Below the pieces are notes generated by a model that did no database searches, was not told the DNA's origin, and saw nothing but the letters and a program-made list of their open reading frames with translations. 64,000 nucleotides of DNA from Candidatus Zixiibacteriota bacterium (GTDB lineage: Bacteria > Zixibacteria > MSB-5A5 > GN15 > JACZUZ01): positions 275,656 through 339,655 of the forward strand of contig JAJRPJ010000006.1 in the NCBI GenBank assembly GCA_024280835.1. Reading direction: 5' to 3'. Shown here one piece after another: positions 28,308 through 34,821 of this stretch. The translations under genes were made by a program, and so were the position numbers. Position 1 is the first letter of the stretch; each line of letters opens with the position of its first letter.

Positions 28308-30152
28308 ATGCAAGAAATGTTAAAAGTCATCGATTTACAGCCAACCGAGCCAAAGGGTTCACCACGTGGTTTCTTCAAGACCGCCTTTTCCAAAGCCATC
28401 ATTGCTTCTGTCGTGGTTGCGACCTTCAGCGCCTGCGGTAGTTCGGGTGGCGATTATGTTGCAATCGTCAATGGTGATCGGATTCCACTCGAAGAGCTAA
28501 ATGCCCAAATGGGTATGTCCAATAAGAAGTTCTTTCAGTCATTTGAAGAAGAACTCGCAGCAAGAAAAATTATCACCGACACGCTAATCATCCGTCAGTT
28601 GTTGGTGGCGGAGGCCTATAAGAAGAACTTTGATGACCTAGAAGACGTTGCCAGAATAGCGTTGTTCAATAAAGAGAAGTTCTTGTTGGATGTTCTCTTT
28701 GACCGAGAAATCGGCATGGAGTCAAATATTAGTGAAGCTGAAGTTCAAGATTACTTCGAAAAGCTAAAGTACAAGTACCGCGCCAGCCATATTCTAGTGA
28801 AAACGCAAGACGAAGCTGAAGCGCTAGTTGATTCTCTGGAGGCTAATGTACCGTTCGGGCGTTTGGCGTTCAAATTGTCTCTTGATCGCAAGTCTGCCAA
28901 AGACAACGGTGATTTGGGATATTTTTTCTGGGGACAGATGGCGGATCCATTTCAGCATGCCATCATCAAAATGTCTCCTGGCGAGATTTCGTCACCTGTG
29001 AAGACTCGTTTCGGTTGGCACATAATCAAACTATCCGAGAAACTCCCCAACACGCTCAGAACGACACTGAAGCAGATGCGTTATGGTATAAAGCAAGATA
29101 TGGGCGCTGCACAACGCAACAGGGATGTGCAGAGTTATTTCGATAGAATGAAAGAAAAATATCCGATTTCAATCGAAGAGAAAACGGTTGAGTTTTTGAT
29201 GAACAAACGAGCGGATTTGTATCCTCCTTTTTACCTTGAGCAATTGCCAAAGAACGACTTTGACATTGAACAGCTTGATCGTGATGAAGTGGCTTTGCCG
29301 CTGGCGACATGGGACGGTGGTCAGGTTTCTATTGGTCAGTACTTAGCGATGATTCGCAAGACGCCACCTGCTTCACGCCCTGACTTAGATGATAGTGACG
29401 GTCTTGAAAACATTATCTTCAGTCTCAAGTTCAATGAGATATTGGGTCTTGAAGCGCGTCGACAGGGGCTTGAGAGTTCTGATGCGTTCAAAACTAAGAT
29501 GAAACGTTTCCGTGAATTTACCATGGCGGAAATCATGCGTGACTCTATCCCTCAGCCGCCACCACCAGATGAAGATGAAATAATCGCCTATTACAATACT
29601 CATCAAGCAGAGTTTACTGTTCCAGAGAAAATCCATCTCTTTGAAGTTTTGGTCAGTGACAAAAGTCAGGCTTTGGAATTGCGCAAGAAAATCAAAGGTC
29701 TCAATCAATTGAAAAGCATCGCCGCTGAACTGACCGAACGAGGCGGAATCCGCGCTAAGAGGGGTGACCTAGGACAGATTGAGCGCAAATGGTTCCCAAA
29801 TGTATTTGATGCTGCCAAGAAAGTGGCTGTCGGTGGTATCGGAGGGCCAATCAAAGCTCGCTTGGGCAAATGGTCTGTTTTCTATGTCGTTGAGAAGCGT
29901 TCCGAAGAGATTAAGAATCTTGATGCAGTCAGACGGAAGATCACAGGGACAATCATCAATTCAAAGAAAAGTGTTTCATTTGCGGAGTGGGCTTCGCGAG
30001 TTAAAGAAGCGGCTGATATCACTATTGATGACGACCTTATTAGCTCCTCTATTGATCCTGATAAATATCCCGGTCCTGCTTCAGCGGCTGTAACTGAAAG
30101 CGCCGTCAACAGCGCTGAGAATAATCAAACCCTGCCAGATAGCTCAAAATAA
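28308..30152 (+). CDS. Periplasmic peptidyl-prolyl isomerase lipoprotein (PpiC/SurA-like)
   Basis: 614 residues: a long N-region, hydrophobic segment and lipobox FSAC (Cys43), SurA_N-like helices (VAIVNGDRIPLEELNAQM), then a parvulin domain at about 155-250 (YRASHILVKTQ, NGDLGYFFWGQM, FGWHIIKL). After a second helical region, a more divergent parvulin domain spans about 440-530 (KIHLFEVLV, RGDLGQIERKWF, LGKWSVFYVVEKR) and seems to have lost much of the active site. It acts on folding of envelope proteins. It lies 37 nt before a SurA-type gene and is probably co-transcribed with it. A membrane-anchored partner of SurA is the simplest reading. Confidence 0.87.
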   Translation: MQEMLKVIDLQPTEPKGSPRGFFKTAFSKAIIASVVVATFSACGSSGGDYVAIVNGDRIPLEELNAQMGMSNKKFFQSFEEELAARKIITDTLIIRQLLVAEAYKKNFDDLEDVARIALFNKEKFLLDVLFDREIGMESNISEAEVQDYFEKLKYKYRASHILVKTQDEAEALVDSLEANVPFGRLAFKLSLDRKSAKDNGDLGYFFWGQMADPFQHAIIKMSPGEISSPVKTRFGWHIIKLSEKLPNTLRTTLKQMRYGIKQDMGAAQRNRDVQSYFDRMKEKYPISIEEKTVEFLMNKRADLYPPFYLEQLPKNDFDIEQLDRDEVALPLATWDGGQVSIGQYLAMIRKTPPASRPDLDDSDGLENIIFSLKFNEILGLEARRQGLESSDAFKTKMKRFREFTMAEIMRDSIPQPPPPDEDEIIAYYNTHQAEFTVPEKIHLFEVLVSDKSQALELRKKIKGLNQLKSIAAELTERGGIRAKRGDLGQIERKWFPNVFDAAKKVAVGGIGGPIKARLGKWSVFYVVEKRSEEIKNLDAVRRKITGTIINSKKSVSFAEWASRVKEAADITIDDDLISSSIDPDKYPGPASAAVTESAVNSAENNQTLPDSSK

Positions 30153-30189: not shown

Positions 30190-31545
30190 ATGAAGAATAT
30201 TGTGCGGCTCAATAAGATGAAATTCAAAAGTTCTAACAATACTGTTACCAATATTATACAGGCTGGAATGTTAGCGGCGATTGTTGTGCTTTCTCTACCG
30301 CTAATTACAATGGCGGGAATCGAGAAAGCCGAGCCATTAGAGAAGATTGTCGCTCGTGTCGGCAATTATCCGATTCTGGTTTCGGAGCTGGCAACTCAAG
30401 TGCAACTCTTGGCGATGCAAACAGGATTTAACCCGACGACACAAGCAGAAGTAGACAAGTTTCAAGAGGAAGTTCTCCAGCAATTAGTTAATGAGAAACT
30501 GTTTCTAATTGCCGCTCAGCAAGACACAACCTTGCGTGTGTCGGAACAGGAAATAACTCAGGACTTAGATCGTCAAGTTGAGCAAATTTCATCGCGTTTT
30601 CCTGATGAAGAAACGTTTCTGAAAGCTCTTGCAAAAGAAGGGCTAACAGTTCGTGAGTTACGACGTAAGTTTTATCCAGAAATCGAAAACAGGATTCTCA
30701 AAGATAAGTTTGTGTCGAGAAAACTAACTTCAATCAGTGTTTCTAGGCAAGAAGTGACGGAGTTCTACAACGAATACCGCGATTCAATCCCCAATCAACC
30801 TCCCAGTATTCGTATTGCTCATATCTTGCTACGTGTTGAAGCTTCAGATGAAGAAGCTAAATCGGTTCGAGATGTTGCGCGTAGAATTAGAAAAAAAGCT
30901 GTCGCCGGTGATGATTTCGATAATTTGATAAATGTCTACAGCGCTCCTGGTGGCGGAGATTTGGGTTACTTGCGCAGAGAAGAAGTGACACCCGAGTTTG
31001 CCTCAGCTGCATTTGCTTTGCGCGTTGGTGATATTTCGGGCGCTGTGCGCACTGGAGTTGGTTACCATATTTTCAAATGTATTCGACGTTCTGGTGACAG
31101 CATCAATGTCAAACAAATATTTTTTCCTGTGGCTTCGACACTTGCCGATACAATTCGCACTCGTCAATTGACTGATTCACTAATTCAAGAATTGAAAAAC
31201 GGCGCCTCATTTGCCGAATTCGCAAAAGAGTTTTCTACCGATGATGACACTCGTCGCACAGAGGGTGAGCTGGGTTGGTATGCGCTCAACGATTTGCCCG
31301 AAGAATTCAAAGAAGTTTTGGAGGGGAATTCTGATGTCGGCAGTATTGTCGGCCCTGCCGAATCCGCTTTCGGTTTCCACACTATAAAAGTTTTAGAAAA
31401 GAGAGACGGAAGAGACGTCAGCCTCGAAAATAGCTATGATCAAATCCGTGAATTGGCGCGTCGACGGGAAACCGATATGCTGATTACTCAATGGGTGGAA
31501 AAGCGCAAGAAAGATACTTTTATCGAGATTCGACCTATCAACTAA
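30190..31545 (+). CDS. surA: SurA-type periplasmic chaperone and prolyl isomerase
   Basis: 451 residues, close to E. coli SurA (428). Signal peptide to about residue 43 (TMAGIEKA), SurA_N chaperone domain (VARVGNYPILVSELATQ, LVNEKLFLIAA), parvulin 1 at about 205-300 (IRIAHILLRVE, GGGDLGYLRREE, VGYHIFKC) and parvulin 2 at about 305-410 (INVKQIFFPV, EGELGWYALNDLPEEF, FGFHTIKVLEKRDG), then the C-terminal helix. It escorts outer-membrane proteins to the BAM complex. The gene follows the lipoprotein isomerase closely and is followed by an S4-domain gene, a sensible envelope-biogenesis group. Confidence 0.9.
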   Translation: MKNIVRLNKMKFKSSNNTVTNIIQAGMLAAIVVLSLPLITMAGIEKAEPLEKIVARVGNYPILVSELATQVQLLAMQTGFNPTTQAEVDKFQEEVLQQLVNEKLFLIAAQQDTTLRVSEQEITQDLDRQVEQISSRFPDEETFLKALAKEGLTVRELRRKFYPEIENRILKDKFVSRKLTSISVSRQEVTEFYNEYRDSIPNQPPSIRIAHILLRVEASDEEAKSVRDVARRIRKKAVAGDDFDNLINVYSAPGGGDLGYLRREEVTPEFASAAFALRVGDISGAVRTGVGYHIFKCIRRSGDSINVKQIFFPVASTLADTIRTRQLTDSLIQELKNGASFAEFAKEFSTDDDTRRTEGELGWYALNDLPEEFKEVLEGNSDVGSIVGPAESAFGFHTIKVLEKRDGRDVSLENSYDQIRELARRRETDMLITQWVEKRKKDTFIEIRPIN

Positions 31546-32098: not shown

Positions 32099-33526
32099 AT
32101 GCCCAATACAAAAAATACTTCCAAAGTTTCCACGAAATCTACACCGAAGATGTCGCCCAAGTCATTACCAAAGACTCTCGGCGAGCTCAATAAGTTTGGC
32201 TACACCCATCGAACAGTGAAGATGGAAATGCGTGAGAATCTTTTGCAATTTCTCCGCGATAGCAAGTCTCCTTTCACTGGAATCATCGGCTTTGACCAGA
32301 CCGTCTTGCCGCAGATATATAACGCTATTCTTTCTCAGCACAATTTTATTTTGCTGGGTCTGCGCGGACAGGCCAAGAGCCGTATTTTGCGTCAACTGCC
32401 GCAGTTGTTGGATGAGTATGTGCCTGCGATTATTGGAAGCGCTCTGAATGAATCACCGCTGGCGCCAGTGACCAACAAGTCACGGGCGTTAATCGCAGAG
32501 TATGGCGCCGATTTGGAGCTAAGATGGATACATCGCGACGAGCGCTATCAAGAAAAACTTGCCACCCCTGACGTTTCGATTGCTGATTTAATTGGTGATA
32601 TTGATCCTATCAAAGCCGCGCGCGAAAAACGTGACATCTCCGACGTAGAGGTTATCAACTGGGGCATTATTCCGCGAACCAATCGGGGAATCTTTGCTAT
32701 CAATGAAGCTCCAGATTTACAGCCGCGAATTCAAGTTGGCTTGTTGAACATTCTTGAGGAAAGCGATATTCAAGTGCGTGGTTTTCCGTTTCGCGCTCAA
32801 TTGGATATACAATTAGTTTTCACAGCCAATCCTGAGGATTACACCAATCGTGGAAACTTAATTACACCTCTCAAAGACCGAATCGATTCGCAGATAATCA
32901 CCCACTATCCAAAGTCGGTTACAGAATCTGCAAAAGTCACCGCGCAAGAAGCTTGGGTCAATCGTCCGACAAAAGTCACCATCCCTGATTTTATCAAGGA
33001 GTTGGTCGAGGAAGTGACAGTTCTGGCGCGCGAGTCAGAGTATGTAGATCAAAGTTCGGGTGTCTCGGCGAGAGTCTCTATCACTTCCTATGAAAACTTA
33101 ATCTCGGCGGTTGAGCGTAGAGCGGCAATTAACAATGAAGATGACACTTATCCGCGAATTTCGGATTTGTATGCTATGCTCCCGTCACTAACTGGAAAAA
33201 TTGAACTGGTCTATGAGGGAGAGCTAGAGGGGCCAACAATAGTGGCTACCAGCATGATCGGCAAAGCCATCAAAGGTCGTTTCAAGCGTTCTTTCCCTTT
33301 GCCGCAAAAAACAGGGCGTAAATCAGCAAGAAGTGACTCTGGTTATAATGAAACGCTTTCGCCTGTGGAGCAATTACAAGCAGAGTCCGCATCAGCTAGT
33401 CCCTATGAAGCTGTCACCGACTTTTTTGGTAGTGGTATGAAGCTGGAACTGTCGGATATGGCCACGCTCAAAGGTTATCGCGCCGCTTTGGATTCAATCT
33501 CTGGATTAAAAGACATAGTTAATTAA
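32099..33526 (+). CDS. AAA ATPase, Mg-chelatase subunit I/MoxR-like, ending at an in-frame TAA
   Basis: 475 residues to the TAA at 33524-33526. A Lys/Thr/Ser-rich N-tail is followed by a chelatase-type AAA core: modified P-loop GLRGQAKSR near residue 86, Walker B GIFAINEAPDL near 200, sensor 1 LVFTANPEDYTNRG and LKDRIDSQI. These match the ChlI-like proteins that work with a VWA partner, here the next gene. The stop appears premature: the same frame continues for 54 codons beyond it with a sequence that looks like the family C-terminus. Start has AAAGGAAAC upstream. The substrate of the pair is unknown; these systems usually load metals or remodel proteins. Confidence 0.85.
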   Translation: MPNTKNTSKVSTKSTPKMSPKSLPKTLGELNKFGYTHRTVKMEMRENLLQFLRDSKSPFTGIIGFDQTVLPQIYNAILSQHNFILLGLRGQAKSRILRQLPQLLDEYVPAIIGSALNESPLAPVTNKSRALIAEYGADLELRWIHRDERYQEKLATPDVSIADLIGDIDPIKAAREKRDISDVEVINWGIIPRTNRGIFAINEAPDLQPRIQVGLLNILEESDIQVRGFPFRAQLDIQLVFTANPEDYTNRGNLITPLKDRIDSQIITHYPKSVTESAKVTAQEAWVNRPTKVTIPDFIKELVEEVTVLARESEYVDQSSGVSARVSITSYENLISAVERRAAINNEDDTYPRISDLYAMLPSLTGKIELVYEGELEGPTIVATSMIGKAIKGRFKRSFPLPQKTGRKSARSDSGYNETLSPVEQLQAESASASPYEAVTDFFGSGMKLELSDMATLKGYRAALDSISGLKDIVN

Positions 33527-33691
33527 CATTTCCGCCCAGCCGACAAAAATGAAATGTATTTGCGGATGGAGTTTGTGCTTGAAGGTTTGCATCAATACAA
33601 CATGCTCGCCAAAGAAATCAAGGAAGCTAACTTCCAGTATAGTGACATGCTGGCCAATATGTTGCGTGATGTTGAGGTCGACACTGATTGA
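33527..33691 (+). pseudogene. In-frame C-terminal remainder of the AAA ATPase beyond the TAA
   Basis: Fifty-four codons in the same frame as 32099-33526, directly after its TAA, ending with TGA at 33689-33691. It reads HFRPADKNEMYLRMEFVLEG, then LHQ and a helical tail with YSDMLANMLRDVE. The motif MEFVLEGLHQ and the final DMLANML resemble the C-terminal helix bundle of this ATPase family as I remember it. One base change (TAA to AAA, Lys) would join the two into about 530 residues. Three explanations remain: a nonsense mutation, a sequencing error, or read-through. Confidence 0.75.
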
Positions 33692-33729: not shown

Positions 33730-34821
33730 ATGAAAATACTGTACTCAAATTGGGATGATGCACTAGCAAAACAGATTGGTCAGTATGACAGTCTGAAAGA
33801 GCTCTTTAACCATTTGCTTATGCAGCTCAATGGTGACGTTGGCAGAGCATTGGATGCAATGCGTCAATTTCAAAAAATGGGTTACCTAGACCCAGATGTT
33901 GATCTTGCAGAATTTGAACGTCGACTGATGAAGGATGCTATCATTGAGGTCTCGCCAGAGGGCAAAGCGCTAACCCGCAAAGGTGAACGTCTCTTGCGAC
34001 GTGACGCTCTCGAAAAAGTATTTGGCGCTTTGCGTAAAGCGGGTCGTGGCAATCATGCCGTTCCACAAGAAGGCGGCGGCGCCGCAGAAATATTACCTGA
34101 GAAACGCGCCTTCCGTTTTGGTGATGACACAGCGCATATAGACTACACTGGCTCAATGTTTAATTCAATCACTCGCACTTCTAGTTTGGATTTAACTCTC
34201 GCCGAGGAAGACCTCGAAGTTTATGAAACCGAGAAAACTACATCGACTGCCACAGCTCTATTGCTGGATGTTTCGCATTCGATGATTCTCTATGGCGAAG
34301 ACAGAATCACGCCAGCGAAACAAGTTGCGATGGCTATCGCCGAATTAATTACCACAAAATATCCGAAAGACTTTTTGACAGTCATACTTTTTGGTGATTT
34401 TGCGCGAGAAGTGAAAATCGAGGATTTGCCATATTGCGGAGTGGGTCCTTATCACACCAATACAAAAGCTGGCCTGCAAATGGCGCGCAACATTCTGCTG
34501 ACACGCAAACACCCTAACAAACAAATTATCATGATCACTGATGGCAAACCATCGGTAATTCGCAAGGACAACGGCCAAATGTACAAGAATCCAATTGGTC
34601 TAGATCCGGTGATAGTCAATCGCACACTAGATGAAGCTGTGATTTGCCGTAAGAAACGTATTCCGATTACCACCTTCATGGTTACCGAGGACCCCTATTT
34701 ACGCCAGTTTGTTGAGCGTCTCACCGAACTCAATCACGGCCAAGCCTATTTCAGCTCCCTTGATCGCCTTGGCGAATTCGTAATTTCAGACTTCCTCAAC
34801 AAGCGCAAAGGTCGCAAGTAA
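33730..34821 (+). CDS. VWA-domain partner of the AAA ATPase (Mg-chelatase subunit D-like)
   Basis: 363 residues from the ATG at 33730 (the frame is open up to 33688). The N-terminal helical half includes a Gly/Ala-rich linker. The C-terminal VWA domain starts near residue 170: MIDAS motif LLLDVSHSM (DxSxS), later Thr in NTKAGLQ and Asp in MITDGKPS. It is soluble. It follows the ATPase gene by 38 nt after the TGA, in the MoxR/ChlI plus VWA pair arrangement. The VWA partner recruits the substrate in known pairs. The intact state of this gene suggests the pair is, or was until recently, functional. Confidence 0.88.
   Translation: MKILYSNWDDALAKQIGQYDSLKELFNHLLMQLNGDVGRALDAMRQFQKMGYLDPDVDLAEFERRLMKDAIIEVSPEGKALTRKGERLLRRDALEKVFGALRKAGRGNHAVPQEGGGAAEILPEKRAFRFGDDTAHIDYTGSMFNSITRTSSLDLTLAEEDLEVYETEKTTSTATALLLDVSHSMILYGEDRITPAKQVAMAIAELITTKYPKDFLTVILFGDFAREVKIEDLPYCGVGPYHTNTKAGLQMARNILLTRKHPNKQIIMITDGKPSVIRKDNGQMYKNPIGLDPVIVNRTLDEAVICRKKRIPITTFMVTEDPYLRQFVERLTELNHGQAYFSSLDRLGEFVISDFLNKRKGRK

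Follow-up and report, generated by a model that had tools for sequence, protein, structure and literature searches.

A single in-frame TAA interrupts an AAA+ ATPase gene with a VWA partner in a Zixibacteria genome: probably a young nonsense mutation

The gene of an AAA+ ATPase in a metagenome-assembled Zixibacteria genome is interrupted by an in-frame TAA, and the sequence behind this codon, about a tenth of the full length, is the conserved end of the protein family. The most likely explanation, to which we give a probability of about 0.7, is that one nonsense substitution of recent evolutionary origin, carried by the sampled population, truncates the product to a 475-residue, likely impaired protein. 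The gene lies in a 64-kb window, by which we mean the whole stretch of DNA that was analysed and which spans positions 275656-339655 of contig C8. The source genome (G000) measures 3.31 Mb in 20 contigs and is 96% complete, and among named genomes its closest relatives are MAGs assigned to Candidatus Zixiibacteriota. The AAA gene was compared with 111 relatives from Zixibacteria, Bacteroidota, Ignavibacteria and other groups; below, G001 is a genome of the same genus, and G002 and G003 are genomes of the same family. In window coordinates, the features of the locus are:

32099-33526, + strand: AAA+ ATPase gene as read, with an ATG start and 475 codons; the ATPase core is complete (model residues 56-392) and the C-terminal domain is shortened
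33524-33526, + strand: in-frame TAA, a sense codon in every aligned relative that has sequence there
33527-33691, + strand: homologous tail of 54 codons with its TGA (33689-33691), untranslated if the TAA is obeyed
33730-34821, + strand: VWA-domain partner gene, intact, 363 aa, with a MIDAS-type DVSHS motif, 88% identical to that of G001

Two adjoining genes of SurA/PPIC-type peptidyl-prolyl isomerases (28308-30152 and 30190-31545) are found just 5' of the AAA-VWA pair. Elsewhere in the window, the segment 12068-13198 aligns with several adjoining places in the syntenic region of G001, a pattern that suggests an internally repeated gene. No relative turned up in the viral contigs searched, a PADLOC search gave 0 matches, and a promoter and terminator scan returned matches no more numerous than in shuffled sequence.

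A sequence-only reading of the window had placed the end of the frame at TAA 33524-33526 and had followed the same frame for 54 more codons to a TGA, which we confirmed: the tail reads HFRPADKNEMYLRMEFVLEGLHQ...RDVEVDTD up to the TGA at 33689-33691. Since an open run of 54 codons arises by chance in about 5% of cases at the given composition, the openness of the tail is weak evidence and only homology can decide. In G001, G002 and G003, a single unbroken frame crosses the stop site and the ends of the proteins are closely similar. The same holds more broadly, as 110 of the 111 relatives have 46-70 residues past the position of the stop. The codon at the site varies among the aligned relatives, with 0 stops. 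Several near-invariant family residues, including an invariant Glu and an invariant Asp, are located in the tail, and all of them are kept in the window copy. That the tail is the conserved end of the family, as had been proposed from the sequence, is thus borne out by its identity to G001 (see below) and its presence in the relatives. Two of the checks proposed with it were run: alignment with homologues showed homology for the tail and no intact relative ending near residue 475, which rules out a family with a natural end there, and comparison of the same locus in related genomes showed no relative with a stop at the site.

The one exception among the 111 relatives is G083, in which the frame is broken earlier in the gene. 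Its copy (L113, contig C83, about 2980) has a frameshift near residue 312, is the only other broken AAA gene among the relatives and is followed by an intact VWA gene. Other apparent stops were rejected on inspection of the alignments. Two TGA codons in G094 disappeared in an alignment that runs without a stop across residues 25-526, and the stops in L052 and L063 come into view only when the alignment is pushed out to query residues 9-10, which in each locus is ahead of the gene's first start codon.

The tail is as conserved as the rest of the protein. Compared with G001, it is identical at 46 of 54 positions and the body at 373 of 445 (p = 1.0 for the difference), and no second lesion was found in the AAA gene. 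Hence, the stop is probably young. The amino-acid changes that could be assigned to one branch or the other number 2 on the G000 branch versus 1 on the G001 branch in the tail and 15 versus 22 in the body (p = 0.56). As silent sites are saturated in this comparison, the age of the stop can only be bounded: judging by the alignment, either it is younger than the split from G001, or else the tail is still under selection. Of the three readings first offered for the stop, a recent nonsense mutation is the best supported, with intact relatives and an undecayed tail.

The protein had been labelled as a ChlI/MoxR-like AAA+ ATPase with a VWA partner, and this label holds only in the broad sense. The core matches the AAA_5 profile with 28.2 bits against a curated cut-off of 22, whereas the score for TIGR02030 (magnesium chelatase subunit I) is 20.2 bits against an equivalog cut-off of 466.95, so that by this curated threshold the protein is not magnesium chelatase subunit I. 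A PDB sequence search gave weak matches to ChlI and Lon only. The predicted structure of the full-length protein, folded with the stop taken as a residue, has a mean pLDDT of 80.7 and resembles both BchI/ChlI (1g8p; Z 18.0, rmsd 3.2, 256 residues) and RavA (3nbx; Z 14.3, rmsd 4.3, 270 residues). The P-loop reads GLRGQAK without exception in 43 family members and has Ala in place of the second Gly of the Walker A motif GxxxxGK[ST]. According to this alignment, the atypical P-loop is a trait of the whole family and not a lesion of the window copy. Because it departs from the standard Walker A, we limit our claim to the fold and the likely kind: the model and the profile match point to a likely AAA+ ATPase of the ChlI/MoxR kind. 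The AAA_5 match, the fold and the VWA linkage uphold the broad label, and the P-loop does not.

An extra C-terminal domain is appended past residue ~420, and the stop (position 476) sits where one predicted helix (470-477) ends, ahead of the next one (483-499). A model of the C-terminal region folded alone is chiefly helical (mean pLDDT 85) and has no hairpin of the kind present in the full-length model. The two models agree on both of these helices and differ past residue 500. Compared with PDB structures, the C-terminal region alone gave no significant match. The combination of an AAA+ ATPase carrying the extra domain with a VWA protein occurs in Zixibacteria, Bacteroidota and Ignavibacteria.

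The partner VWA gene had been described as intact, which we confirmed. By homology, its start is ATG 33730 and not TTG 33688 of the raw list of open reading frames, so that it begins 38 nt behind the TGA of the tail. A VWA relative is linked to the AAA gene in 93 of 108 loci; it is found downstream of the AAA gene and within ~110 nt in nearly all Zixibacteria loci, and upstream in many Bacteroidota loci. The source genome contains other AAA_5 ATPases, and a search for a second, intact copy of this family found none. The family was not detected in 56 of the 98 relatives searched, some of which are incomplete genomes, so its loss seems survivable.

The pair resembles NorQ/NorD and RavA/ViaA (a MoxR AAA+ ATPase with a VWA partner), in which an AAA+ ATPase is likewise linked to a VWA gene with a MIDAS-type motif, and RavA is among the structural matches of the window protein. 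The window family differs from both in its own C-terminal domain and in its low sequence similarity, and its role is assigned by analogy alone. Compared with BchI/ChlI, the core fold is alike, but the score far under the TIGR02030 cut-off, the invariant P-loop and the additional C-terminal domain set the family apart. By analogy with NorQ/NorD (PMC9976466, PMC13036017), remodelling of a target protein is the probable activity of the pair, and it may serve to insert a metal.

A point against the nonsense reading is that several other conserved genes of the genome have like stops, none of them clearly TGA, and that frameshifts are few, a combination that plain mutation does not specially predict. 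Our tally covered 1.03 Mb of G000 (about a third of the genome; 320 sense-like orthologue pairs, ~115,000 codons) and 1.70 Mb of G001 (323 genes). In G000, six of the 320 genes are interrupted by one in-frame stop with matched sequence on both sides, and all six stops are TAA. They are listed here by contig position, the five genes outside the AAA locus being named from reading of their sequences and not from a profile search:

C8:162654: in-frame TAA, 788-residue relative, RND-type transporter
C8:181881: in-frame TAA, 907 residues, surface-type protein
C8:309179: in-frame TAA, the AAA ATPase gene of the window
C12:39157: in-frame TAA, 497 residues, multihaem-cytochrome-like
C12:88147: in-frame TAA, 226 residues, membrane methyltransferase-like
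C12:98604: in-frame TAA, 554 residues, 92% identical to G001, methylmalonyl-CoA-mutase-like

These five further genes sit in loci L125, L126, L254 and L257. In G001, three of the 323 genes contain four such stops (TAG, TAG, TAA and TAA, none of them a clear TGA), located at C1:317368, C1:310646 and 309734, and C7:336994, with two stops in one gene. Clear frameshifts number about one in each genome. Other listed stops, which fell at alignment ends or in short, probably spurious frames, were set aside by eye. A control of 403 gene pairs from other loci and other phyla yielded 0-1 clean cases, and as it comprises other lineages and was filtered slightly differently, it is a rough yardstick. The Fisher p-value is 0.05 for 6/320 versus 1/403, and 0.10 with both genomes pooled. 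Two further regularities were noticed post hoc. Codon opportunity predicts shares of 39% TAA, 37% TAG and 24% TGA; at these shares, finding TAA in all six cases of G000 has p ~0.003, and the lack of TGA among the ten stops has p ~0.06. The stop sites are not common to G000 and G001, and the orthologues of two other interrupted genes in further Zixibacteria have no stop at those places. TAG codons seen in the transporter gene of G030 and G038 were discounted, as they fall beyond the aligned region or close to its C-terminal end. The numbers are small, and we take them as a faint sign of an unusually large number of single in-frame stops in the genus. Both G000 (C12:471565-471660) and G001 (L143, 806-901) have a predicted tRNA-Sec gene, and some in-frame TGA codons in the genus may encode selenocysteine.

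The strongest competitor, which we regard as unlikely, is that the TAA is a consensus or assembly error, or an allele of a minority strain captured in the metagenome consensus, and that the gene is intact in most cells. The genome is metagenome-derived according to the records of its relatives, the tail shows no decay, and errors of the substitution type would likewise produce stops with few frameshifts. On the other hand, contigs of 400-500 kb suggest good coverage, and six nonsense codons in ~115,000 codons would require about one substitution error per 2 kb (at a nonsense share of 3.6%).

Considerably less probable is leaky termination, in which the genus reads through UAA and UAG, with full-length protein still being made, and single stops are tolerated in about 1-2% of conserved genes with no dedicated suppressor tRNA. 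It would account for the excess of interrupted genes over the control in both genomes (all TAA in G000, TAG or TAA in G001), for the scarcity of TGA and of frameshifts, and for the uniform TAA of G000. The termination machinery speaks against it. Release factor 1 of the source genome is complete and retains both the PAT and the GGQ motif. All three stop codons serve as terminators, TAA being the commonest and TAA and TAG the usual ones, which also rules out a reassigned genetic code as a simple account. No UAA-reading anticodon was found among the tRNAs read (a part of the 43 tRNA places in the genome). A genome-wide search with a pattern that combines a UAA-reading anticodon and a standard T-arm returned only tRNA-Lys, tRNA-Leu and one further place (C14:141610), which was considered as a suppressor candidate and is not recognised as a tRNA. 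Besides, the stop sites differ between the two genomes, the stop-free orthologues of two interrupted genes offer no parallel, and the absence of TGA among so few stops is only marginal.

The two remaining accounts apply to the AAA gene alone. Re-initiation could in principle yield a two-piece protein, with the tail made separately and bound to the truncated ATPase: the tail is conserved and contains an in-frame ATG at 33554, 28 bases past the stop. We find this very improbable, given that no ribosome-binding site is evident by eye and no relative is split in this way. Programmed read-through particular to this gene, giving a short and a long form, had been proposed in the sequence-only reading from the intact, in-frame tail, and it is scarcely credible with a stop at a site where no relative, including the same-genus G001, has one, with a normal release factor 1 and with no UAA-reading tRNA found among those read.

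We return to the young nonsense mutation and its expected consequences. The substitution would have arisen recently in the population behind this genome, and we infer that the stop is present in living cells. Translation would end at UAA 33524-33526 and release a 475-residue AAA+ ATPase that keeps its whole core and roughly half of the additional domain, which is cut between the two predicted helices. The shortened protein is probably impaired. In addition, the untranslated stretch before the VWA start would grow from 38 to 203 nt, and VWA expression may fall. As a result, the AAA+/VWA remodelling machine, which by analogy with NorQ/NorD would serve as a chaperone or help to insert metal, is likely to be impaired or lost.

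Isolated in-frame stops that are short-lived have previously been described in conserved genes of bacteria (Belinky et al. 2021, PMC7918605). Those stops and the one in the window have in common that one in-frame stop interrupts an otherwise intact and conserved gene and is young relative to species divergence. That study retained stops common to at least two genomes, whereas the window stop is known from a single genome only. Taken alone, the stop is an ordinary lesion, and many relatives do without the AAA gene altogether; the gene should be annotated as interrupted and not as a natural short form. Together with the other stops of the genus, it raises a testable question: are single in-frame UAA and UAG codons in conserved genes of uncultured lineages consensus errors, short-lived mutations or sites of tolerated read-through?
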